IMG/VR virus record: IMGVR_UViG_3300024339_000050
Location: 1 to 32,385 of that record
Reading direction: 5' to 3' (one strand)
Length of the DNA: 32,385 nucleotides
From: a virus
Every line of letters begins with the position of its first letter. Position 1 is the stretch's first letter. Below, in pieces: positions 3,204 through 20,677 of this stretch. The position numbers were made by a program, and so were the translations under genes. The notes below the pieces were generated by a model, which saw only the letters and a program-made list of their open reading frames with translations, had not been told where the DNA came from and did not search any database.

Positions 3204-5504
3204 ATGGCAACTTCGAGAAAAGCACCTGATTTAGTACTTGATACGTCCCCTCAACTTGGCGGCAACCTAGATGTAAATGGGCACACTGTTGATGGTGTAG
3301 ACATTGCAACAAGGGATGGTGTCTTAACTTCGACAACTACAACAGCTAACAACGCACTGCCTAAAGCAGGTGGTGCAATGACGGGTGCTATTACAACTAA
3401 TAGTACCTTTGATGGTGTAGACATTGCAACAAGGGATGGCGTCTTAACTTCGACAACTACAACAGCTAACAACGCACTGCCTAAAGCAGGTGGTGCAATG
3501 ACGGGTGCTATTACAACTAATAGTACCTTTGATGGTGTAGACATTGCAACAAGGGATGGCGTCTTAACTTCGACAACTACAACAGCTAACAACGCACTGC
3601 CTAAAGCAGGTGGTGCAATGACGGGTGCTATTACAACTAATAGTACCTTTGATGGAAGAGATGTAGCTACTGATGGTTCTAAACTAGACCTTATTGAAGC
3701 AAGTGCAGATGTAACTGATACAGCAAATGTAGTTGCTGCGTTGTCTGCTGGAACTGGTGTTACTATTAGTGGTGCTGGTGTTGTTGCTGTATCGGCGGTA
3801 GCTCTTACCACTGTTCAAACTGCTGTCAGCCAAGCTGCTCAGCTGGCTCTTACCGCTCAAGAAGGTGATGTTGTTGTTCGTTCAGATGAGAATAAGTCTT
3901 ATGTGCATAATGGCGGTACTGCTGGAACTATGGCAGACTACACACTGCTTGCCACTCCGACCGATGCTGTACTAAGTGTTAATGGGGTTACTGGTGCAGT
4001 TACTGCTGCTCATATAGCAGCAGCAGTAGAAGCCGCTAGTGGTTCAAATACATTTACAGATGCCGACCACACTAAACTAAATGCTATTGAAGCCTCAGCT
4101 GATGTAACTGATACAACAAATGTTACTGCTGCTGGTGCATTGATGGATGGTGAAGTAACTAACCTTGCTCAAGTAAAAGCCTTTGATACAACTGATTATG
4201 CTACCGCTGCTCAAGGTACGACTGCTAATGCAGCTTTACCTAAAGCAGGTGGTGCAATGACGGGTGCTATTACAACTAATAGTACCTTTGATGGTCGTGA
4301 TGTAGCAACAGACGGCTCAAAGTTAGATGGCATTGAATCAGGCGCTACAGCAGACCAAACTAATGCTGAGATAAAGACTGCTTATGAAGCTAATGCTGAT
4401 ACTAATGAGTTTAGTGATGCTGAACAAACAAAACTAGCAGGAATAGCTACTTCAGCTAACAACTATGTTCATCCAAACCATAGTGGCGATGTAACATCTA
4501 CTGCTGATGGCGCTACAGTAATCTCATCTGGTGCAGTTGATATTGCAATGTTATCTGCTACAGGTACAGCTTCAGGCACTACATTCCTTAGAGGAGACAA
4601 TACTTGGGTTGTACCTACTGATACTAATACTACCTATACATCTTCAGACTTTACTCATGATGACTTAACTGGATTCGTAGCTAACGAACATGTAGACTGG
4701 ACTACTGACCAAGGTGCTACCAATATCCACGCTGGTAATTACACAGATACTAATACTACATACAGTGTTGGTGATGGTGGATTAACACAGAAGAACTTTA
4801 CTACCACTCTTAAAGATAAGTTAGATGGTATTGCTACAGGTGCAACAGCTAATGGAACAGTAACAGGTTCTGGTACTACTTCAGGTACAAACACAGGTGA
4901 CAATACAGTTTGTACTTCAGGTACAGCTACTACTGCTGCTACTCTAGCAACAGCTAGAACTATCGCAGGTGTATCGTTTGATGGTTCAGCTAATATATCT
5001 CTAAATAACAATGCTATTACTAATGGCGCTGGTTATACAACTAATGTAGGTGATATTACTGGCGTTACTGCTGGTACTGGAATGAGTGGTGGCGGTACAT
5101 CTGGCACTGTAACACTAAATTGTACTATTGATTCACCATCTGAAGTAGGCTTAGGTAACTTATCATCTAGTGGTAACGCCCTTTCAGGCACTTTCACTGC
5201 GACAGGTGATATCGTGGCTTACTCTGATGAACGCTTAAAAGAGAATGTTGAGGTTATACCTGATGCTTTATCCAAGGTTAAACAGTTAAGTGGTTATACA
5301 TTTACAAGAAATGATTTAGATGATACAACTAAAAGATACACAGGTGTTATCGCTCAAGAAGTCTTAACTGTACTGCCTGAAGCGGTGGTGTTAGGTGATA
5401 CCTCTGAAGATACTATGTCAGTTGCCTATGGTAATATGATGGGTCTAATGATTGAAGCTATTAAAGAATTAGAAGCTAAGGTTGAGAAATTGGAGAATGA
5501 ATAA
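3204..5504 (+). CDS. Repeat-built tail fibre/spike with C-terminal S74 chaperone domain
   Basis: This 766-residue protein opens with APDLVLDTSPQLGGNLDVNG, a common phage fibre start. Residues ~30-150 are three nearly identical 40-residue repeats (GAMTGAITTNSTFDG type), followed by degenerate repeats such as DGRDVATDGSKLD and KLDGIATGATANG through to about residue 660. The C-terminus is an S74-type intramolecular chaperone: SDERLKENVEVIPDAL begins at Ser674, then IAQEVLTVLPEAV and a final coiled coil (MIEAIKELEAKVEKLENE). In studied members this domain trimerises and folds the fibre, then cuts itself off just at the SDxRxK site. The protein is therefore probably a homotrimeric receptor-binding fibre. 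The next gene overlaps by one base (TAATG). Confidence 0.9.
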   Translation: MATSRKAPDLVLDTSPQLGGNLDVNGHTVDGVDIATRDGVLTSTTTTANNALPKAGGAMTGAITTNSTFDGVDIATRDGVLTSTTTTANNALPKAGGAMTGAITTNSTFDGVDIATRDGVLTSTTTTANNALPKAGGAMTGAITTNSTFDGRDVATDGSKLDLIEASADVTDTANVVAALSAGTGVTISGAGVVAVSAVALTTVQTAVSQAAQLALTAQEGDVVVRSDENKSYVHNGGTAGTMADYTLLATPTDAVLSVNGVTGAVTAAHIAAAVEAASGSNTFTDADHTKLNAIEASADVTDTTNVTAAGALMDGEVTNLAQVKAFDTTDYATAAQGTTANAALPKAGGAMTGAITTNSTFDGRDVATDGSKLDGIESGATADQTNAEIKTAYEANADTNEFSDAEQTKLAGIATSANNYVHPNHSGDVTSTADGATVISSGAVDIAMLSATGTASGTTFLRGDNTWVVPTDTNTTYTSSDFTHDDLTGFVANEHVDWTTDQGATNIHAGNYTDTNTTYSVGDGGLTQKNFTTTLKDKLDGIATGATANGTVTGSGTTSGTNTGDNTVCTSGTATTAATLATARTIAGVSFDGSANISLNNNAITNGAGYTTNVGDITGVTAGTGMSGGGTSGTVTLNCTIDSPSEVGLGNLSSSGNALSGTFTATGDIVAYSDERLKENVEVIPDALSKVKQLSGYTFTRNDLDDTTKRYTGVIAQEVLTVLPEAVVLGDTSEDTMSVAYGNMMGLMIEAIKELEAKVEKLENE
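3291..3650 (+). repeat. Three 120-bp tandem repeats in the fibre gene
   Basis: Units 3291-3410, 3411-3530 and 3531-3650 differ at a single base (T at 3320, C in the others). They encode a 40-residue unit. The last ~55 bases of the unit recur unchanged at 4240-4294. Near identity at silent sites shows recent duplication or conversion. Confidence 0.97.
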
Positions 5505-6523
5505 TGGCTTTACAGAGTTCAGGAAGAATTGATTTAAGTGATGTAAATGTTGAGTTAGGTAACTCTGCTACTGCTAATATCTCATTAGGTAGTGCAGCAG
5601 TTAGAGGGTTATTTGGTGTTGCTAGTGGGACTATTAGTTTATCTGATGGTTATGGTGCTAGCGGTAGTACAAACTTAGGAACAAGGGGTATATTTGCAGG
5701 TGGAGAACTAGGGTATGCCCACCACAATGAGATTCAGTACATAACCATAGCTACCACAGGTAATGCTACTGACTTTGGTGATTTAGTTTGGGGGCGTGCG
5801 GGCCTATCAGCTTGTTCTAATGGCACTAGAGGTGTATTTGGGGGTGGTTACGATTCTTCAACTTACTTCGATATGGATTACATAACTATAGCTACAACAG
5901 GTAATGCTACCGACTTTGGTGATTTGACAGTAGGTAGAGAGCACAACGCCTCCTGTGCAAACACAACTAGAGGTGTATTTGGAGGCGGTTGGGATGGCAC
6001 TCAATATGCCTCTATTGATTACATAACCATATCCACCACGGGTAATGCTGCTGACTTTGGTGACCTAGCATTTTCAATACAACAGCTAGGTGCTTGCTCT
6101 AGTTCCACTAGAGGTATATTTGGAGGTGGTACAACGGGTACAGTGGTTGACAATATTCAGTACATAACCATATCCACCACGGGTAATGCTGCCGACTTTG
6201 GTGATTTACTAAGCGCTACCAGCCTTATACCTGCTTGTTCTAATGGCACTAGAGGTGTATTTGGGGGTGGTTACACAGGCGCAAACACCAATGTTATTCA
6301 GTACATAACCATATCCACCACGGGTAATGCTGTTGACTTTGGTGATTTGACTTTCGCTAGAAATAGTTTAGCTGCTTGTTCAGACGGCACTAAAGGTGTA
6401 TTTGGTGGTGGTGGCGCTGATAATATTATGGATTACATAACCATAGCTACCACAGGTAATGCTGTTGACTTTGGTGATTTGACACAAGGAACAAAGGGAA
6501 TATCTGCTTGCTCAGGCACATAA
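5504..6523 (+). CDS. Kelch-like six-repeat fibre or receptor-binding protein
   Basis: This 339-residue protein has a short N-terminal domain (MALQSSGRIDLSDVNVELG..., residues 1-58) of a kind that often starts phage fibre proteins. It is followed by six repeats of about 47 residues from residue 60 to the end. Each has the pattern TRGVFGGG - variable loop - YITI(A/S)TTGNAxDFGDL - variable loop - ACS. The Gly-rich strand and six-fold number resemble a kelch-type six-bladed beta-propeller. Frame is constant and strands are strictly conserved, while two loops per repeat vary in length and sequence, as expected for a ligand-binding face. It follows the S74 fibre by one-base overlap, so it may be a fibre tip or second receptor-binding protein. 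Confidence 0.75.
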   Translation: MALQSSGRIDLSDVNVELGNSATANISLGSAAVRGLFGVASGTISLSDGYGASGSTNLGTRGIFAGGELGYAHHNEIQYITIATTGNATDFGDLVWGRAGLSACSNGTRGVFGGGYDSSTYFDMDYITIATTGNATDFGDLTVGREHNASCANTTRGVFGGGWDGTQYASIDYITISTTGNAADFGDLAFSIQQLGACSSSTRGIFGGGTTGTVVDNIQYITISTTGNAADFGDLLSATSLIPACSNGTRGVFGGGYTGANTNVIQYITISTTGNAVDFGDLTFARNSLAACSDGTKGVFGGGGADNIMDYITIATTGNAVDFGDLTQGTKGISACSGT

Positions 6524-6533
6524 GGAAACTAAT

Positions 6534-7388
6534 ATGAGAAACAATACAAATAAAGTAATAAAACTAGACGAAGCTAAAGACCAATTAAGTGAATACAATG
6601 GCTTTAAGGAACTTCAAAAGTCAGTAGGTGGCTTATCTACAATCACAGACGAGAAGTTAGCAATAATTGCTTCTAAGATGCCAGCGATTGATAGAGCAAA
6701 TCACACAGCAGGTCGTTCACAAACTCAAACTACCAATCAATTAATGTCATTAACAATGATGTCAGATAGTCCTTACAGAATGATGCGCCAATGTTTATCT
6801 CAGATTGAGAAGAAGCGTGGAGCGTTAGAGGAATCTTACTTCAAGATGAAGAAGAAAGCTATCTTAATCAAACAATGGTATGCCAAAGGTGATGAGATGT
6901 CTGTGGTAAAAGCACAAGAAGCTGAAGCACAAGCATTTAGACAGAAAGATTATATCGATGGTGCTTTAAAAGAGATTGCTACTTTCCAATGTGCTTATGA
7001 TGAAATCAGGGAGTCACATAATATCCCCGAGAAATGGGATGAACGTGATGCTGAGATAGCTGAAATTGACCACCATATTAAACAAGCGTTTAGACAAGCA
7101 CACAGAGACGTAGTACAGACTGGTAGTATCACTGGTGGTAATATGGAGTATATGGAACAGTACGGTATTCATATTCAGACAGCTACTAAGATTATCAGAG
7201 ACTATGTTGCTAGAGAAGACAAGATGATTAGCGAAGGCAAGATGCCTACTGTTGAGCATCTATATGCTTTCCTAGACAGTATGGCTGTACAATTCAATGA
7301 TGCACATAAGCTAGTAATGAAGCGTATAGGCATCAAAGAACTAATCAAGGAAGATTTCTTATACTTGGAGGATAAAGATGATAATTAA
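6534..7388 (+). CDS. Helical protein of unknown function, first gene of the radical SAM/halogenase operon
   Basis: This 284-residue protein is almost wholly helical and charged, with no signal peptide or membrane segment. Visible stretches include ITDEKLAIIASKMPAIDRAN, QTQTTNQLMSLTMMSDSPYR and the coiled-coil-like region around residues 90-150 rich in Lys, Glu and Gln. I have the impression of similar unnamed proteins near tail fibre genes of marine phages, but I cannot name a family. It has an AAGGA site and ATG, and its end overlaps the next gene by 11 bases. Coupling to the downstream enzymes suggests a shared role, for example as scaffold or fibre-associated factor; this is inference. Confidence 0.55.
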   Translation: MRNNTNKVIKLDEAKDQLSEYNGFKELQKSVGGLSTITDEKLAIIASKMPAIDRANHTAGRSQTQTTNQLMSLTMMSDSPYRMMRQCLSQIEKKRGALEESYFKMKKKAILIKQWYAKGDEMSVVKAQEAEAQAFRQKDYIDGALKEIATFQCAYDEIRESHNIPEKWDERDAEIAEIDHHIKQAFRQAHRDVVQTGSITGGNMEYMEQYGIHIQTATKIIRDYVAREDKMISEGKMPTVEHLYAFLDSMAVQFNDAHKLVMKRIGIKELIKEDFLYLEDKDDN

Positions 7389-8094
7389 ATACCAGTTAGA
7401 AAACAGAACAACACCTACAGGTACAGGACTAACAGCTCCTGAATGTATTTCTGATGGCGGATACGCTTTTGATATTGAGGACAGCACCTATACTGGGCAC
7501 GCTGATAGTACCCAGCCTTTGTGTGCTTCTTGTGTTGAGATAACAGAGGTAGAACTAGAGGAACGGAAAGCTAAACTAGCTAACACACGCGAGTGTGCCA
7601 TAAGGTCGGATGGTCAAGCTAGTTATACAGAGTCACTAGATAACGACACCAATGGGTTTATGGTAGTAAAAGCATACCCAAGTAACACCCCTGTACATTA
7701 CTATACCAAAGGTGATAGTAGCTGTGATTTCTACTCTGAACGTCCTGAAGGTCGTAAGAAGTATTGGACTAACAATATATCACCTGAGAGGTATAGTCAG
7801 CCTGATTCTGATAGTCAAGTATTAGGATGTTACAGTGAGGTTGAAGGTAGTTCCCAAGAATGGTACTATCACTTTATTGTATTCGAAGATATGATGTCTT
7901 TTGTTAATAGCCATAAGTCTATATCTTTAAATTCGACACTAGAAGTAAAGATGAGAGACAACCCTTTAAGTGTAAGGCCTACTGCATTTGGAGACGGGCC
8001 TTTTATGTACATCGCCAGTGTGTCTATAACAACAGCAGGTGATAAAACAACAACTATATATGTAACAGCACAGCCTGAAGATGTGTTTAGTTAG
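7378..8094 (+). CDS. Unknown Cys-containing protein between fibre and radical SAM genes
   Basis: This 238-residue protein starts at ATG within the end of the previous gene (11-bp overlap) with GGAGG seven bases upstream. It looks like a mixed alpha/beta protein: a central stretch with FMVVKAYPSNTPVHYY and a C-terminal beta-rich part ending in TTTIYVTAQPEDVFS. It has six Cys (23, 49, 52, 73, 116, 151), including one CASC pair that could bind a metal. There is no signal peptide. It overlaps the radical SAM gene by 14 bases. I do not recognise the family. It could be a structural tail protein or the substrate of the enzymes that follow; nothing in the sequence decides this. Confidence 0.5.
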   Translation: MIIKYQLENRTTPTGTGLTAPECISDGGYAFDIEDSTYTGHADSTQPLCASCVEITEVELEERKAKLANTRECAIRSDGQASYTESLDNDTNGFMVVKAYPSNTPVHYYTKGDSSCDFYSERPEGRKKYWTNNISPERYSQPDSDSQVLGCYSEVEGSSQEWYYHFIVFEDMMSFVNSHKSISLNSTLEVKMRDNPLSVRPTAFGDGPFMYIASVSITTAGDKTTTIYVTAQPEDVFS

Positions 8095-8998
8095 CTTCTC
8101 AAAGGAGAAATCCTACTCCTCAAAAGAAAAGGTTGATAAGTTTGATGGGCTACCTAAGTGGGGATATATAGATATTACATCTAAATGCTCGCATGGTTGT
8201 GCTTGGTGCTATGGTGGTTTTAATGAAGATTTAAACTCAGAGATGAATCTTAATGAATTTAGAACTGTCCTATCAAAACTAAAGGTGATGGGCTTACATC
8301 AAATAACTATAACTGGTGGAGAGCCTACCGAGCATCCTCAATTTCTAGAGTTTGTAGCAGAAGCAACTAAAGACTTTATGGTTCACGTATGCTCACATGG
8401 TGATTGGACTCAAGACTGGGCAAAAGATTTAGCAAAGCTAGGTGTTAGTCAGATTCAGTTCAACTATCAAGGCTCTAAGCGACATGATGGTGTTCATCAA
8501 GTATTAGGCTCGTATCTTAAACAAGTAACAGCAATCAAGCAATCTATCAAGGCAGGCGTTGAAACAGTCGGAACAGTAACTGTTGGGGCTTACAACTTGA
8601 AAGATATAGATGGTATCTTCAAAGAGATGTCAGACTTGGGTGTTACTCGTTTAAGAGTATGGGAAGCAACTGGAAAAGGTAATAAGTGGCGTAAAGATAA
8701 AGAAGCTAAAGAGATATTTGATATTTGTAAAACCTCGGCATCAGCACTTGGATTTAACTTTGTTCAGTCTTACGACCCAGATATAGTTGGTGATGTAAAC
8801 GCTCACTGCCCAGCACAAATGCAAATGTTTATGTATATCAATAGTGATTCAGAATTAATTTTCTGTCCAGCAACAGACCAGTTGTTAAACAAGCCTATTG
8901 CGTCATTCAAAGAAGATACCTATCAAGCTATTCAAAATAAGTATTCAGCGTTTATGAATAGTCTTTCTTCTGGTACTTGCTTAGCTAGGGAAGGATGA
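8081..8998 (+). CDS. Radical SAM enzyme with SPASM/twitch-like C-terminus
   Basis: This 305-residue protein has the radical SAM signature CxxxCxxC at Cys36, Cys40 and Cys43 (KCSHGCAWCYGG), which binds the [4Fe-4S] cluster that cleaves S-adenosylmethionine, and the SAM-binding GGEP motif at 79-82 (ITITGGEPTEHPQF). The barrel continues to about residue 235. The C-terminus holds Cys243, Cys262 and Cys300 (HCPAQMQMFMYINSDSELIFCPATD), resembling a twitch or reduced SPASM domain that would hold an auxiliary cluster. SPASM/twitch enzymes often modify peptides or proteins. The ATG at 8081 lies inside the previous gene, and no other in-frame start exists before the motif. Its stop forms ATGA with the next gene. 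The substrate is unknown. Confidence 0.88.
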   Translation: MCLVSFSKEKSYSSKEKVDKFDGLPKWGYIDITSKCSHGCAWCYGGFNEDLNSEMNLNEFRTVLSKLKVMGLHQITITGGEPTEHPQFLEFVAEATKDFMVHVCSHGDWTQDWAKDLAKLGVSQIQFNYQGSKRHDGVHQVLGSYLKQVTAIKQSIKAGVETVGTVTVGAYNLKDIDGIFKEMSDLGVTRLRVWEATGKGNKWRKDKEAKEIFDICKTSASALGFNFVQSYDPDIVGDVNAHCPAQMQMFMYINSDSELIFCPATDQLLNKPIASFKEDTYQAIQNKYSAFMNSLSSGTCLAREG

Positions 8999-9219
8999 AG
9001 GACTGGGTTTGGTATTTGAAATATATAAGCGCTTCAGTGATTCTTGTAGCTATAGGCTTGCATACAATTCCTGAAGCATATCCATACAATGTAATTGTTC
9101 ATCTAGTGGGGGCGATTCTTTGGACTATTGTTGGCCTTAAAACAAGAGAAGGCGCTATATTGTTAAACTTTATGCCACAAATTATAATTTTCAGTGTTGG
9201 CCTGTGGGTGGCTTCATGA
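8995..9219 (+). CDS. Small inner-membrane protein, three predicted segments
   Basis: This 74-residue protein is almost entirely hydrophobic, with likely membrane segments at residues ~6-24, ~32-48 and ~53-72 separated by short charged turns. It resembles small membrane proteins seen in marine T4-like phages (DUF6552-like, from memory, not verified). It lies between the radical SAM and halogenase genes and overlaps both by ATGA, so the three are translated together. It could anchor the enzymes at the membrane, move a substrate, or be unrelated. Few other clues exist. Confidence 0.6.
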   Translation: MKDWVWYLKYISASVILVAIGLHTIPEAYPYNVIVHLVGAILWTIVGLKTREGAILLNFMPQIIIFSVGLWVAS

Positions 9220-10784
9220 ATAAGTTAGTAATATTAGGTGGGGGTACTTCAGGCTGGATGAGTGCCGCGTACTTTCATGCTAAAGGTGGATATGACATTA
9301 CAGTTATTGAATCACCTAACTTCAAGCCTATTGAGATGTCTGCTTCAACTACACCATATTTAAAACGCTTTTTTAAAGAAATTGGTATTGAATCAGAATC
9401 TGAGTGGATGCCAGCATGTAAAGCTACGTATAAATTGGCAGTTTTATATGATGATTTTGCTCATCTTGGCTCACGTATGTGGAACTCCTTTGAGGGTGAA
9501 GAGGATTGGCATTGTTATTGGAATAAGCATAGGACTGAAGACGGCTTGCCAAACTCAGACTTCTTTTTATCAAGAATCTATTCATCTCATATTGGTATGA
9601 ACGACTCTGGTAAATTCGTAATGAATAAAGATGGCGAGATGGCTTACCCATATATGCCTAAAAAATCGTTTGGAGGGCATCCAGAACCTTGGGCATACAA
9701 CATTGATTCAGGCTTGTTCAACCAGTTTTTAAAGAATAGAGTTATGAATGATATTAATTTCGTTCAGACAACTATTGAAGAGATTAAGACTGATGACACT
9801 GGTATTACAGCTTTAATTGATTCAGATGGAAATGAGCATACAGCAGATTTGTTCATTGATTGTACAGGTTTTAAAGGTATGTTAATTGAAGCGGTTTGTC
9901 CTGATGGACGTATTCCTTTAGACCCTTATTTGTCACACGATAAGGCTATTGTTGTTGATACTAAATATACAGATGTTGAAAATCAAATGTGTCCTAGAAC
10001 AGGAGCTAAAGCACTATCAAGTGGATGGATGTGGGATATACCTTTGTATGACAGGGTTGTGAATGGTTATGTTTATTCGTCAGAGTTTCAGTCTAGCGAA
10101 GATGCTGAAAAAGAGTTATTAGATAATATAGGTGATGATAGAGCAATAAAAGACTCAATCATGCACATGGACATTAAAACTGGGCATTACGCACGACCTT
10201 GGTCAAAGAATGTAATCGCTATTGGAATGTCAGCTGGATTTATTGAACCAATGGAAGCAACACTATTAATGACTGTTCAGTTCACGCTGGTTAATATTCA
10301 TGAGGTGTTTGCTGATAGGATGAATAAAGAAAAGTGTAATGATATATTTGAAGCTGCATTATTCGATACACTTGATTGGGTTTCAACTCAATACTATATG
10401 AGTCACAGACAAGACTCAGCATTTTGGCGCTTTAAATCACAGAATGGTACACAGATAAGACCTCGCATGAAAGAGTGGCTAGAATCGTGCAAGACTGCGA
10501 TGCTACCCCCTAAAGATGATGTGTTATTCTTTCCAAATTGTTGGTACACGAAGTTAGTTGGTTTTGAGTATTACCCCGTTGGTGATGGATTTCCAATAGA
10601 AGAAAGTATGTCATTGCCTACATTTTCAGATTCAAACTTTAAGCCCCAGAATAAGTTCAAGTACAAAGAGATGGATGAGCTTAATGCTAGGATGCAAATG
10701 GAGAAGATAAGAAACTTTGATACAAGCATATTAATCAGTCAAAAAGAATACTTAGATAAATTTATATACAATAATAAAGGCTAG
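9216..10784 (+). CDS. Flavin-dependent tryptophan-halogenase-like enzyme
   Basis: ATG at 9216 is preferred over GTG at 9204 because it forms an ATGA overlap with the upstream stop and begins right before the FAD fold; the product is 522 residues, normal for the family. It has the N-terminal Rossmann motif GGGTSGW (residues ~8-14), the family lysine in KATYK (Lys73, equivalent to PrnA Lys79), the signature WxWxIP (GWMWDIP, residues 270-276) and the acidic active-site residue in EPMEAT (Glu347, equivalent to PrnA Glu346). Such enzymes use FADH2, oxygen and halide to make hypohalous acid, delivered through the lysine. Marine phages carry relatives, including VirX1 of cyanophage Syn10, which prefers iodide. 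A separate flavin reductase would be needed; none is visible here. The substrate is unknown. Confidence 0.92.
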   Translation: MNKLVILGGGTSGWMSAAYFHAKGGYDITVIESPNFKPIEMSASTTPYLKRFFKEIGIESESEWMPACKATYKLAVLYDDFAHLGSRMWNSFEGEEDWHCYWNKHRTEDGLPNSDFFLSRIYSSHIGMNDSGKFVMNKDGEMAYPYMPKKSFGGHPEPWAYNIDSGLFNQFLKNRVMNDINFVQTTIEEIKTDDTGITALIDSDGNEHTADLFIDCTGFKGMLIEAVCPDGRIPLDPYLSHDKAIVVDTKYTDVENQMCPRTGAKALSSGWMWDIPLYDRVVNGYVYSSEFQSSEDAEKELLDNIGDDRAIKDSIMHMDIKTGHYARPWSKNVIAIGMSAGFIEPMEATLLMTVQFTLVNIHEVFADRMNKEKCNDIFEAALFDTLDWVSTQYYMSHRQDSAFWRFKSQNGTQIRPRMKEWLESCKTAMLPPKDDVLFFPNCWYTKLVGFEYYPVGDGFPIEESMSLPTFSDSNFKPQNKFKYKEMDELNARMQMEKIRNFDTSILISQKEYLDKFIYNNKG

Positions 10785-10858: not shown

Positions 10859-11080
10859 ATGGAGCAGCGATTAGATAGGCTAGAGCAGGCTAGTGCGCGT
10901 CACGACGAACAGATATCTACCCTATCCTTGAAGATGGGAGATATGAACACACACTTAACATCAATACAAGACACTCTTAATCAGATAAAGTACATCGCTG
11001 TAGGTATGGTGTTCTACTTTACCTTGCAAGAGTTTGGATTTTTTGAGGCATTTAAAGTGGTGTCTAAGGCGGTAGTATAG
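10859..11080 (+). CDS. XhlA-like coiled-coil membrane protein, copy 1
   Basis: This 73-residue protein has an N-terminal coiled coil (RLDRLEQASARHDEQISTL, residues ~3-42) and one membrane segment (~45-62, QIKYIAVGMVFYFTLQEFG). This layout recalls hemolysin XhlA-type small phage proteins that accompany holins. It shares QIKYxAxG and the spacing of the membrane segment with the next gene, so the pair is a tandem duplication. A role in membrane lesion formation or lysis timing is possible; an anchoring role is equally possible. The stop overlaps the GTG start of the next gene. Confidence 0.6.
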   Translation: MEQRLDRLEQASARHDEQISTLSLKMGDMNTHLTSIQDTLNQIKYIAVGMVFYFTLQEFGFFEAFKVVSKAVV

Positions 11081-11289
11081 TGGAAAAACGTGTCAATAGA
11101 ATTGAAGACCAAGTAGCTAAGACGTTCTCTGAAATAACTAATCTTAATAAGCGTGTTGGTAAGATGAATAACAGAATGACTAAGATGGAACAGGCTGCTA
11201 TACAGATTAAATACACTGCTTTTGGCGCGCTTGGGGTATTCGTACTCACACAGGTGGGCTTGCTTGAATTTTTAAAACTGGTAAAGTGA
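11080..11289 (+). CDS. XhlA-like coiled-coil membrane protein, copy 2
   Basis: This 69-residue protein starts with GTG overlapping the previous stop by one base (TAGTG). It has the same layout as its neighbour: coiled coil (RVNRIEDQVAKTFSEITNL) then QIKYTAFGALGVFVLTQVG at residues ~42-60 and a short tail. The membrane segments align residue for residue. Two diverged copies in tandem could form a heteromeric complex or fulfil separate timing roles. Function is inferred only from layout. Confidence 0.55.
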   Translation: MEKRVNRIEDQVAKTFSEITNLNKRVGKMNNRMTKMEQAAIQIKYTAFGALGVFVLTQVGLLEFLKLVK

Positions 11290-11357
11290 CACCTATAGAA
11301 CAGATTGTGTTGATAGCAGACTGCACACTCTTTTACCCATACCTGCTATGTTGTTAA
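11286..11357 (+). CDS. Possible 23-residue hydrophobic peptide
   Basis: A short frame starts with GTG overlapping the previous stop (GTGA) and ends with TAA at 11355-11357. The product is hydrophobic with three Cys (TPIEQIVLIADCTLFYPYLLCC). It fills most of the gap before the next small gene, and coupling by GTGA matches the style of its neighbours. No clear ribosome site and short length make it doubtful. Confidence 0.25.
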   Translation: MTPIEQIVLIADCTLFYPYLLCC

Positions 11358-11372
11358 ACGAGGAAAGTGGAA

Positions 11373-11507
11373 ATGGCAAGAACTAATCAGAAAGCAAGAG
11401 ACAGCAAGGGGCGTTATTTAAAGCTTACCGTACTTAACCAAGTGAAATTAGTGTGTAATCGTTTCATGCTCAAGTTAGATGCTTGGCTTAAAAGTATAGA
11501 CAAGTGA
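11373..11507 (+). CDS. Small basic protein, 44 residues
   Basis: ATG at 11373 follows GAGGAAAG with good spacing, and the frame ends with TGA at 11505-11507, which overlaps the ATG of the next gene (TGATG). The product starts MARTNQKARDSKGRYLKLTV and is rich in Lys and Arg with an amphipathic C-terminal half (FMLKLDAWLKSIDK). It has no match I recognise. Tight packing and a good ribosome site support a real gene. Confidence 0.5.
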   Translation: MARTNQKARDSKGRYLKLTVLNQVKLVCNRFMLKLDAWLKSIDK

Positions 11508-11935
11508 TGGGATTGCTAACAAGTATAGCGCCTATATTGGCAGGTTTTGCAATGAAGCTGTTTGCGCTTAACCAACAAGCCAAACAAGAACAACACACTC
11601 AGATGCTAGATGCGTTTGCTGCAAGGTCTCAGAATATGCAAGATGCTAGAGCTCAATCTAATAAAGAAAGCCCTATGGCTGCCTTAAACAGACGGGTTAT
11701 TATCTTTGTGATACTAGCATTAGTTATATTCACTCAAGTAGCTCCTGTGATGTTTGACGTGCCTACAGTAATACCTACAGTTACTAAAGGATTCAGTCTA
11801 TTAGGCTTTGAAGTAACATCTGACAAGGTTGAATACATTACTGTTAAAGGTATGCTTAAACTAACTGAGGTGTTTGAATGGGCTTCTTTAATAATTGAAT
11901 TTTATTTTGGCAGTCAGCTCGCTAAGGGGAGATAA
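11507..11935 (+). CDS. Membrane protein, candidate holin
   Basis: ATG at 11507 (TGATG overlap with the previous stop) gives 142 residues; a GTG one codon earlier is less likely. Hydrophobic segments lie at residues ~3-22 and ~63-83, with a third weaker one near the C-terminus (~123-138). Between them is a polar helix rich in Gln and Ala. The stretch SPMAALNRRVIIFVILALV followed by FTQVAPVMFDVPTVIP is a type I have seen in marine phages without firm function. Size, two to three membrane segments and small membrane neighbours make a holin possible, but no lytic enzyme is visible nearby. The next gene overlaps by one base. Confidence 0.5.
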   Translation: MGLLTSIAPILAGFAMKLFALNQQAKQEQHTQMLDAFAARSQNMQDARAQSNKESPMAALNRRVIIFVILALVIFTQVAPVMFDVPTVIPTVTKGFSLLGFEVTSDKVEYITVKGMLKLTEVFEWASLIIEFYFGSQLAKGR

Positions 11936-16951: not shown

Positions 16952-17965
16952 ATGGCATCAAGCTATACAACAAATTTAGGGTTCGAGAAGCAAGGGGATG
17001 GTGAAAACGCATCTACTTGGGGTGTAAAGGTCAACACTGTCTTTGACCTCATAGAGGATGCCATCGCAGGTGTTGGCTCCATCTCAATGACGGCAGATGC
17101 AGACAAGACACTAACTGATATAGACGGCGCAGTAGATGAGTCACGAAGTGCGGTACTAGAATTTACCTCAACACTGTCCCTAACCGCAACGCGCTCTATT
17201 ATAGTACCCACCTCAGGCAAAATATACATAGTTAAGAACGGCACTACTGGAGGTCAGTCTCTTACAATAACCACAGTAAGCGGTACAGGTGTTACTATTG
17301 CTAACGGCGATATAAGAATAGTCTACTGTGACGGTACAAATATATTAGAAGCAGGCGCAGCAGACCAGACGGCCGCTGAGATTAAGACCTTATTAGAGAA
17401 TGGCATTGACAGTATTCATTATGTAGACGGTAGTATTGATAATGAACATATTGCAGACAATGCAATTGACAGCGAGCACTACGCTGACGGCAGTATCGAC
17501 ACAGCCCATATTGCAGATGACCAGATTACAGTAGCAAAAATGGCAGACAACTCAGTTGACTCTGACCAGTATGTAGATGGCAGTATCGACACAGCCCATA
17601 TTGCAGATGACCAGATTACAGTAGCAAAAATGGCAGACAACTCAGTTGACTCTGACCAGTATGTAGATGGCAGTATCGACACAGCCCATATTGCAGATGA
17701 CCAGATTACAGTAGCAAAAATGGCAGACAACTCAGTTGACTCTGACCAGTATGTAGACGGGTCAATTGATGCGGCTCATTTATCAGCTACATTAGGTGAT
17801 TTAAGAAGAGGGGTTACCCATGTAGGTAGAGATGCTAATGACCATATTCAGATAGACACCAATATGATAAGATTCTATATTGACGGTGTTAATGTAATGA
17901 GCTGTGATGCTTCGGGCAATATAATCGCCAAAGGCAATGTAACAGCTTACGGAACACCTGCTTAA
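16952..17965 (+). CDS. Tail fibre protein with 30-residue repeats
   Basis: This 337-residue protein begins MASSYTTNLGFEKQGDGENA and STWGVKVNTVFDLIEDAI, a start found in many phage fibres. A beta region follows (residues ~45-130), then short degenerate repeats and three identical 30-residue repeats (GSIDTAHIADDQITVAKMAD then NSVDSDQYVD). It ends in a tip with HVGRDANDHIQIDTNMIRFY and VNVMSCDASGNIIAKGNV, which looks like the strand region that often precedes an S74 chaperone, but no S74 domain follows. It may be a truncated or chaperone-free fibre. Ribosome site AGGAGCAGG. Confidence 0.75.
   Translation: MASSYTTNLGFEKQGDGENASTWGVKVNTVFDLIEDAIAGVGSISMTADADKTLTDIDGAVDESRSAVLEFTSTLSLTATRSIIVPTSGKIYIVKNGTTGGQSLTITTVSGTGVTIANGDIRIVYCDGTNILEAGAADQTAAEIKTLLENGIDSIHYVDGSIDNEHIADNAIDSEHYADGSIDTAHIADDQITVAKMADNSVDSDQYVDGSIDTAHIADDQITVAKMADNSVDSDQYVDGSIDTAHIADDQITVAKMADNSVDSDQYVDGSIDAAHLSATLGDLRRGVTHVGRDANDHIQIDTNMIRFYIDGVNVMSCDASGNIIAKGNVTAYGTPA
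17491..17760 (+). repeat. Three 90-bp tandem repeats in the fibre gene
   Basis: Units 17491-17580, 17581-17670 and 17671-17760 are identical apart from one base near the end of the last copy (GTAGACGG in place of GTAGATGG). They keep the frame (30 residues). Partial degenerate copies precede them. Confidence 0.97.
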
Positions 17966-18892: not shown

Positions 18893-20677
18893 ATGGCATT
18901 ACAATCGATTAACTTTCCTCCGGGAATACAAAAAGAGGGTACAACCTACTCTTCAGAGGGCTCTTGGGCTGATGCAGACAGGGTTCGATTTAAAGCAGGA
19001 ATGCCTGAGCGTATTGGCGGCTGGACAAAACATATTAATGGTACTTTAAACGGTGTGGCCAGGGCTATAGTAGCATGGCGCTCCAACAACGGTACTGTTA
19101 ATACTGCTTACGGCACACATAAGAAACTGTACCTGGAGCAGGGCGGTACGCTTTACGACATAACACCTCTTAGAAAAACTACTACTACCATGTCTAGCGA
19201 CCCAGCAGCCTCGGTAAATGCATCTACTACAGTCACAATAACAGACACAGCGCATGGCGCCTCAACAGGAGACTTTGTAACCCTGTCTGGACTTACAATG
19301 GGCGCATCAGGGCTGGTAACTACAGAAGTAAATGCCAATCATGAGCTTACAGTGCTTACTGTAGATACATATACTATAACGGTAGCAACTGCAGCGTCTG
19401 CTACAGTATCTGTAGGCGGAACAGCAGGTGTTGCAGCCTATGAAGTCAGTATTGGTACGATTACCGAGTCCTTTGAATACGGGTACGGTACTTCTACATG
19501 GGGCGATAGTACGTGGGGAACAGCGCGTACTACATCGTCGGTTACACTAACCCCTAGAATTTGGTCTTTAGACACGTTTGGTGAGGATTTAATAGCAACA
19601 TACGAGCAGGGGCTGTTGTATACCTGGGACGCATCAGGCGGCTCAGGAGTCAGAGCGACCGTTATAACCAACGCTCCTGCTAGCAACAGTCGAATCTTAA
19701 TATCTACCCCAGACAGACATCTTATTGCATTTGGGTCACATAATGGGACAGAGTTTGACCCATTATTAGTTAAGTGGGCTTCGCAAGAAAGCACCACAGA
19801 CTGGACAGCTAGTAGTATTAACACCGCAGGTAGTATGAGAATATCAGGAGGCTCTAAAATTGTAGGAGCCCAGCGAGGTCAGGGTCAAGTTCTAGTATGG
19901 ACAGACACTGATTTACACTCTATGCAGTTTACAGGACCTCCGTATACATTTGGTTTCCAGCAGATTGCAACAGAGTGTGGGGCTGCGGGTCCTAATGCTA
20001 TGGTGGTATCCAACTCAGTAGCATACTGGATTGGGCAACATAACTTCTATATGTATGATGGTTCTGTAAAACCACTACCTAGTACTGTACGTACTTATGT
20101 ATTTAACGATATTAATAAGACGCAGCGTAGTAAGATGGTGGCAGGACTAAACCAGGCGTTCCATGAAGTGTGGTGGTTCTACCCGTCTGAGAGTAGTACG
20201 GAGAACAATAAGTATGTGATGTATAATTATGCAGAAGGGGTGTGGTCGCTTGGTGCCATGGGCCGTAGCGCTTGGGTAGACAGAGGAACATTTAGACTTC
20301 CTATTGGAGTTTCTGATACAGGGGTAGTTTATGACCATGAGAAAGGAAATACTGAAGACGGTACTGCTATGGTGTCCTATATTGAGTCTGCTGAGTTTGA
20401 TTTAGGTGAGGGTGATGAGTTATTCTCACTACATAAAATCATACCTGACATATCACAAGACGCAGGGTCTGTTGATATTAGCTTCGATGCTAAGCTGTAC
20501 CCTAACGATGCAGCTAAGGCATACGGACCTTTCACTGTAACCCCTACAACAGAAAAGATAAACACTAGGCTTAGAGCGCGCCAAATCAGCATTAAATTTA
20601 CTTCAGATGCCTTATTAGACGAGAAGTGGCGACTTGGTACATCCCGTATTGATATTAAACCTGCAGGAAGGAGATAG
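18893..20677 (+). CDS. P22 gp10-like tail hub / DNA stabilisation protein
   Basis: This 594-residue protein begins MALQSINFPPGIQKEGTTYS, continues GSWADADRVRFKAGMPERIG and GWTKHINGTLNGVARAIVAW, and then THKKLYLEQGGTLYDITPLR. I know this start from a family common in podoviruses and related to the P22 gp10-like tail accessory proteins that close the tail after packaging. At about residues 105-175 a Thr/Ser-rich insert is present (TITDTAHGASTGDFVTLSGL type), typical of added domains in phage proteins. The rest holds repeated Trp/Gly strands such as YGTSTWGDSTWG, suggesting a propeller. AAGGAG precedes ATG. Assignment rests on memory of the N-terminus. Confidence 0.65.
   Translation: MALQSINFPPGIQKEGTTYSSEGSWADADRVRFKAGMPERIGGWTKHINGTLNGVARAIVAWRSNNGTVNTAYGTHKKLYLEQGGTLYDITPLRKTTTTMSSDPAASVNASTTVTITDTAHGASTGDFVTLSGLTMGASGLVTTEVNANHELTVLTVDTYTITVATAASATVSVGGTAGVAAYEVSIGTITESFEYGYGTSTWGDSTWGTARTTSSVTLTPRIWSLDTFGEDLIATYEQGLLYTWDASGGSGVRATVITNAPASNSRILISTPDRHLIAFGSHNGTEFDPLLVKWASQESTTDWTASSINTAGSMRISGGSKIVGAQRGQGQVLVWTDTDLHSMQFTGPPYTFGFQQIATECGAAGPNAMVVSNSVAYWIGQHNFYMYDGSVKPLPSTVRTYVFNDINKTQRSKMVAGLNQAFHEVWWFYPSESSTENNKYVMYNYAEGVWSLGAMGRSAWVDRGTFRLPIGVSDTGVVYDHEKGNTEDGTAMVSYIESAEFDLGEGDELFSLHKIIPDISQDAGSVDISFDAKLYPNDAAKAYGPFTVTPTTEKINTRLRARQISIKFTSDALLDEKWRLGTSRIDIKPAGRR

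Follow-up and report, generated by a model that had tools for sequence, protein, structure and literature searches.

Genes at the Locus

The window analyzed here, i.e., the whole stretch of DNA, is a 32,385-base IMG/VR virus record (IMGVR_UViG_3300024339_000050), and its subject of interest is a run of five + strand open reading frames (ORFs) close to the tail-fiber genes. As confirmed from the sequence, consecutive ORFs overlap by 11, 14, 4, and 4 bases, and they encode a 284-amino acid (aa) protein, a 238-aa protein, a radical S-adenosylmethionine (SAM) enzyme (PF04055, 62.6 bits), a small membrane protein, and a flavoprotein of the Trp_halogenase family (Table 1). An earlier, sequence-only reading of this DNA had recognized the radical SAM and halogenase-family enzymes correctly, and had taken the five genes as one coupled set encoding a modification pathway. 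The window probably derives from an uncultured marine phage, because the relatives of its "stabilization" protein (18893-20677) belong to phage DSL-LC04 (43% identity), pelagiphages HTVC027P/HTVC023P, and Roseobacter phages CRP-901/902 (32-36% identity).

Table 1. Tail-tip genes and the adjoining enzyme genes in the window.
Feature	Position	Strand	Evidence	Assignment
Long tail fiber, C-terminal S74 chaperone domain	3204-5504	+	PF13884 2.6e-14; PHROG tail fiber families	Context
Propeller-like fiber-tip protein	5504-6523	+	N-terminus MALQSSG; PHROG family of unknown function	Context, candidate substrate
284-aa protein	6534-7388	+	27 other loci without enzymes	Fiber module, outside enzyme cassette
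238-aa protein	7378-8094	+	Residues 1-66 fiber module; rest of unknown origin, in slot of protein X	Candidate substrate or partner
Radical SAM enzyme, predicted SkfB/PqqE-like fold	8081-8998	+	PF04055, invariant Cys, model and fold matches	Cassette core
Small membrane protein near DUF6552	8995-9219	+	26.5 bits vs cut-off 27	Optional
Trp_halogenase-family flavoprotein	9216-10784	+	PF04820 288 bits; clade analysis	Cassette core

A Conserved Enzyme Pair

IMG/VR was scanned with each of the proteins, and gene maps were drawn for all loci (designated by L numbers below), from which two separate modules emerged, a fiber module and an enzyme cassette. The 284-aa gene occurs at 28 loci. Apart from the one in the window's own virus, these are 27 loci at which it is usually located downstream of a propeller-type tip and is often followed by a small protein; neither the radical SAM enzyme nor the flavoprotein was found at any of the 27. 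In addition, residues 1-66 of the 238-aa protein resemble one family of the small protein that follows the 284-aa gene (hhalign probability 89%, E 2e-6). Because of the enzyme-free loci and this match, the 284-aa gene and part of the 238-aa gene are assigned to the fiber module, and the proposal of five genes as one conserved set was given up.

Members of the radical SAM family were found in 27 viral contigs of IMG/VR. Of these contigs, 23 also have a flavoprotein gene that belongs to one clade and is located 3' of the radical SAM gene in the same orientation, at a spacing that ranges from a 22-base ORF overlap to 786 bases. The flavoprotein is missing from the other four (L096/L097, L100, and L101). 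After near-identical contigs had been merged by hand into 19 lineages, the pair was kept in 16. The radical SAM gene is absent from all 55 loci of other phage halogenases. The conserved unit is the radical SAM enzyme plus the flavoprotein, not the five genes. Loss of linkage, random placement, and loss of catalytic residues had been named in the sequence-only reading as signs against a joint pathway; the outcome was favorable for these two genes only, which are linked beside tail-tip genes, are under purifying selection, and have kept their catalytic residues. A published description of this gene set was not found in the open-licence literature, nor were papers on radical SAM enzymes together with phage halogenases or on such enzymes modifying tail fibers.

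With regard to the small membrane protein, its proposed place in the operon stands for the window, where its gene overlaps both neighbors, but it is optional among relatives; it is also found directly 5' of the flavoprotein gene in L012-L014 and L169. Small membrane proteins of two kinds are seen between the enzymes, and a shared ancestry of the two received no support. A different, 177-aa multi-pass membrane protein is encoded directly 5' of the radical SAM gene in two loci (L102:7467-8000 and L104:2451-2984), and no Pfam family was above cut-off for the one of the two that was tested. Two further loci, both cut off upstream, have tandem flavoproteins of two subclades (L016:211-3351 and L017:81-3221).

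Both enzymes are under purifying selection, with a ratio of nonsynonymous to synonymous substitution rates (dN/dS) of 0.04-0.11 in close pairs, while protein X, the upstream neighbor in relatives, has values of 0.33-0.53 where measurable. Over ten core loci, the identities of the radical SAM enzyme and the flavoprotein correlate poorly (r 0.24). For example, the window and L003 share 85% identity in the radical SAM enzyme and 55% in the flavoprotein, and the window and L012 share 77% and 92%, respectively. To judge from these comparisons, the parts of the cassette are reshuffled with the gene order kept. Such strong mosaicism, together with neighboring genes that differ between loci in the gene maps and the four viral contigs lacking the flavoprotein, would fit a fiber region that is an insertion hot spot, in which the two enzymes have separate jobs that do not concern the tip. 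However, the pair persists in those 16 lineages despite separate recombination of each gene, overlapping or near-contact reading frames are maintained, and purifying selection is strong, which makes unlinked cargo improbable.

Position behind the Tail Tip

The cassette is located downstream of tail-fiber or adhesin genes in every relative with enough upstream sequence. The tips themselves vary in build, comprising Gly-rich proteins with MALQSSG-like N-termini, collagen-like fibers (PF01391, L003), a GP38 adhesin (Pfam, L101), and the propeller of the window, whose MALQSSG N-terminus is common to the Gly-rich tips of relatives. In most relatives, two genes, Y (~140 aa) and X (160-240 aa), stand between the tip and the radical SAM gene.

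Genes for 2-oxoglutarate (2OG)-Fe(II) hydroxylases are interspersed in 17 of the 27 viral contigs with the radical SAM gene. Two types occur: one comes close to Asp_Arg_Hydrox without reaching the Pfam cut-off, and the other exceeds the cut-off of 2OG-FeII_Oxy_3. The same two profiles were detected in 23 of the 55 loci with other phage halogenases, in 1 of the 27 enzyme-free fiber loci, and in none of 54 unrelated phage radical SAM loci.

A similar arrangement is found in cultured cyanophages. In Syn10 (HQ634191), the source of the halogenase VirX1, a pair of halogenase genes comes directly after two Gly-rich proteins that match tail-fiber families and is followed on the 3' side by a gene run in which at least four members exceed the Pfam cut-offs of 2OG oxygenase, JmjC_2, or Cupin_8 families (L232:3314-14541); which halogenase gene is VirX1 was judged by gene length only. 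In the Synechococcus phage S-CREM1, a collagen-like gene, a halogenase, and eight or nine genes annotated as 2OG oxygenase/JmjC occur together (L234:5633-15112). In published readings, cyanophage halogenases are antibiotic-type metabolic genes, and the 2OG oxygenases are repair or metabolism genes.

The Radical SAM Enzyme

The CxxxCxxC motif of the radical SAM enzyme (C36/C40/C43) and its GGE motif (G79-G80-E81), both hallmarks of the superfamily, are invariant in an alignment of 21 sequences, which includes two from bacterial metagenome-assembled genomes (MAGs; Turneriella and Marinamargulisbacteria). Four more cysteines, C2, C243, C262, and C300, are invariant in the same 21 relatives and could hold one auxiliary Fe-S cluster, as would be expected of a twitch-type enzyme. 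A SPASM domain, to which the sequence-only reading had alluded, was not matched in Pfam at E 0.1, and the invariant C-terminal cysteines number only three, so that the enzyme is not placed in the SPASM class. An AlphaFold model (predicted local distance difference test score, pLDDT, 87.8) has SkfB as its closest fold, followed by BlsE, PqqE, and MoaA, and a sequence comparison with the PDB likewise gave SkfB as the best match. The modeled fold is thus peptide-maturase-like.

Among known systems, SkfB (6EFN) and other peptide maturases of the radical SAM type are closest in sequence and fold. They differ in that the window enzyme lacks a SPASM match, carrying C243, C262, and C300 plus the invariant Cys2, and in that no short precursor peptide was seen. 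The resemblance to SkfB and the existence of peptide halogenases such as SrpI might point to a system in the manner of ribosomally synthesized and post-translationally modified peptides (RiPPs), in which a toxin or signal for release would be matured by the enzymes from a peptide cut out of X or of the 238-aa protein. We consider this highly improbable, as no conserved gene for a short precursor was seen in the gene maps, in which the screen for very short ORFs was not exhaustive, nor was a leader peptidase or exporter, while X is predicted to be a folded barrel (see below). SrpI and MibH (PMC10858898) still provide a precedent for flavin-dependent Trp halogenation in a ribosomal peptide; they belong to RiPP clusters, and the part of that source drawn on here describes no radical SAM partner.

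Among isolated phages, one weak partial match to the radical SAM enzyme was obtained. Its bacterial relatives (L052 and L053) have no adjoining halogenase-type gene, and their surroundings are unlike fiber regions. In the Turneriella MAG, a second radical SAM gene comes immediately after that of the relative (45%), and a glycosyltransferase-like gene is located nearby (L052:8001-9960).

The Trp_halogenase-Family Flavoprotein

In addition to its Pfam family, the flavoprotein matches 30 solved halogenase sequences, VirX1 included, and many of these matches are free-tryptophan halogenases. It has the GxGxxG motif, as well as the catalytic Lys and WxWxIP, which are known features of flavin-dependent halogenases (PMC8407142). 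The earlier statement that all key residues are present holds for Lys K73, Glu E347, GGGxxGWM, and WMWDIP, but not for the GEAT segment, which reads SAST, or for the EST-G segment, which reads EAT-L. Within the clade, the catalytic Lys and Glu are invariant and WxWxIP is found in most members. The published motif of flavin-dependent halogenases, Fx.Px.Sx.G (PMC8407142), was not found in the window protein, either as such or as the variant with a charged residue for Gly; the corresponding segment is FIEPMEATL. The Gly is missing in 20 of 20 clade members, being replaced by Leu or, in one, by Ala; Ala replaces Ser in 17 of 20, and the Glu of the GEAT segment is missing in 16 of 20. Because of the missing motif, the protein is filed as a Trp_halogenase-family flavoprotein. 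Judging from these residues, halogenation is uncertain and the enzyme may be a hydroxylase.

Near full-length sequences of the clade are clearly apart from other phage halogenases (at least 590 vs at most 275 bits). Compared with VirX1 (Syn10, 6QGM), the flavoprotein belongs to the same Pfam family, and the Syn10 island of fiber tip and 2OG oxygenases resembles that of the window's relatives; however, the window flavoprotein has ~29% identity to its Syn10 match and falls in a different clade, that clade lacks the Gly of Fx.Px.Sx.G, and no radical SAM partner is among the Syn10 neighbor genes listed.

A functional parallel may be found in the biosynthesis of a bacterial enzyme cofactor, that of quinohemoprotein amine dehydrogenase. 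QhpG, which its authors compared with halogenases, dihydroxylates peptidyl Trp after QhpD has crosslinked the same chain (PMC7876137). Like the window, that system has a radical SAM enzyme and a halogenase-related flavoprotein in one operon. There, both enzymes act in turn on the same operon-encoded polypeptide, QhpC; no QhpC-like substrate was seen in the window. The window flavoprotein is not a QhpG ortholog, scoring 26.6 bits with the NCBIfam QhpG model against a cut-off of 240.

Protein X and the 238-aa Protein

In nearly all relatives, X stands 5' of the radical SAM gene, and it overlaps or abuts that gene in several loci. Apart from a weak X-like ORF in L170, neither X nor Y was found without the radical SAM gene among the fetched loci, a sample biased by the use of the enzymes as queries for most of the loci. 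A search with three close X members returned only loci already known, so X without the radical SAM gene is poorly sampled; the full X alignment was too variable as a query.

An AlphaFold model of X from L012, based on 12 sequences (pLDDT 88, predicted template modeling score 0.85), has ten main strands in five hairpins, and K77, K190, Y192, and Y43 are invariant in these sequences. In ABBA prenyltransferases, diphosphate is bound by Lys, Arg, and Tyr in the interior of the barrel, and the invariant Lys and Tyr of X are candidates for comparison with these residues. ABBA prenyltransferases head the list of Foldseek matches in the PDB (E 2.6e-3, probability 0.97). VIA-align gave Z 10.1 over 170 of 196 residues, with a root-mean-square deviation of 3.4, and all 50 matches listed have the ABBA (PT-barrel) fold. 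The modeled X of relatives, a predicted ten-stranded barrel, thus resembles ABBA prenyltransferases in fold, which by itself shows no function; at 196 aa it is shorter than these enzymes (~280-420 aa), and no sequence match to them was obtained. A viral structure library gave one match below E 0.001, an uncharacterized phage protein, and X of L012 matched nothing in isolated phages.

In the window, the slot of X is occupied by the 238-aa protein. Its C-terminal part was considered as an X homologue on account of motif order judged by eye and a shared RSDG, but the alignment was no better than shuffles, 12 of 60 (hhalign) and 32 of 120 (profile alignment) of which scored as well. Likewise, Xz, found in loci with collagen fibers, is only suggestive as a form of X: z was 3.7 and 2.6 in a first two of its members and near 0 in a second two, and controls went up to 2.3.

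The fold of X bears on a different function, the tailoring of a small, probably aromatic or indole, molecule. Here X would be a small ABBA-type aromatic prenyltransferase, the flavoprotein would halogenate or hydroxylate, the radical SAM enzyme and 2OG enzymes would add steps, and the product would act in the host or against competitors, the fiber region merely tolerating insertions. L169:48-3159 and L170:2456-5311 have a flavoprotein of the same clade but no radical SAM gene; its partners there are instead a polyprenyl synthetase (PF00348; L170, 149 bits) and a gene resembling nucleoside deoxyribosyltransferases. These two loci, with the X fold, make small-molecule tailoring the main rival to tip modification. 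The free-tryptophan halogenases among the flavoprotein matches and the antibiotic function ascribed to cyanophage halogenases in the literature are also in its favor. It is nevertheless rather unlikely, since the cassette keeps a constant place after the tip and its reading frames touch those of genes linked to the tip, the companion hydroxylases are of types that include protein hydroxylases, and in the gene maps no transporter or scaffold-building enzyme was seen adjoining the cassette.

A Possible Role in Tail-Tip Modification

The analysis suggests, though it is not yet proven, that phages chemically decorate the protein that they use to grab bacteria. Specifically, we give a probability of about one half to a swappable cassette that modifies the phage's own tail-tip-associated protein by a logic like that of QhpD/QhpG. 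Its core would be the radical SAM enzyme and the flavoprotein, often with 2OG-Fe(II) hydroxylases and, in relatives, with X upstream. Placed directly behind the fiber-tip genes, the cassette would be translated together with them. During tip synthesis, the radical SAM enzyme would oxidize or crosslink residues of a tip-associated polypeptide, for which the adhesin, X, or the 238-aa protein of the window are candidates; the flavoprotein would next oxidize or halogenate an aromatic side chain of the same polypeptide, as QhpD and QhpG do on QhpC, and the receptor-binding tip would be chemically altered. We infer that the substrate is a virion protein, and likewise the reactions and the benefit, which might be receptor choice or stability.

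Tip-protein modification is the best explanation because of the conserved pair, its place behind the tip, companions whose types include protein modifiers, reshuffling with kept order, and strong selection. SkfB as the closest fold, the Syn10 and S-CREM1 islands, and the precedents of QhpD/QhpG and the peptide brominase SrpI point the same way. Of the modification pathway first proposed, the linked enzyme pair beside the tip genes is retained, the five-gene set is not, and halogenase activity is in doubt. Several observations weigh against tip modification. One radical SAM family pairs with tips of unrelated build, so that no single tip protein is obvious as the common substrate. The prenyltransferase-like X and the polyprenyl synthetase accompanying the flavoprotein in L169/L170 would suit small-molecule or lipid chemistry, the membrane proteins of the cassette have no role in the model, and neither X nor a replacement for X has been demonstrated in the window. 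Both unlinked cargo and a RiPP-like product are less likely than tip modification or small-molecule tailoring.

More tentatively, there may be a general, swappable tip-decoration island behind the adhesin gene, in which enzymes of the radical SAM, halogenase, and 2OG hydroxylase kinds, possibly along with ABBA-prenyltransferase-like ones, would alter the receptor-binding tip post-translationally; VirX1 and other viral halogenases would natively serve the same purpose. From these neighborhoods, halogen, crosslinks, or hydroxylation is predicted on tail-tip proteins. If so, the chemistry of receptor-binding proteins would not follow from their sequence alone, which would matter for host-range prediction, and new protein-modifying enzymes could be drawn from the islands.

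Other Features of the Window

Promoter-like sites are not enriched in the region (13 vs 23.7 in shuffles), nor are terminator-like sites (3 vs 3.7). The flavoprotein ORF has an alternative GTG start at 9204, and small genes follow it at 10859-11935. Upstream, a stretch of ~40 residues (NNALPKAGGAMTGAITTNSTFDG...) is present as three near-identical tandem copies close to the N-terminus of the long tail fiber. A second fiber-like gene (16952-17965) differs in length by 30 residues from its counterpart in L002 (L002:13023-13946), a contig that is otherwise identical to the window and in which the genes adjoining this fiber-like gene are 100% identical.

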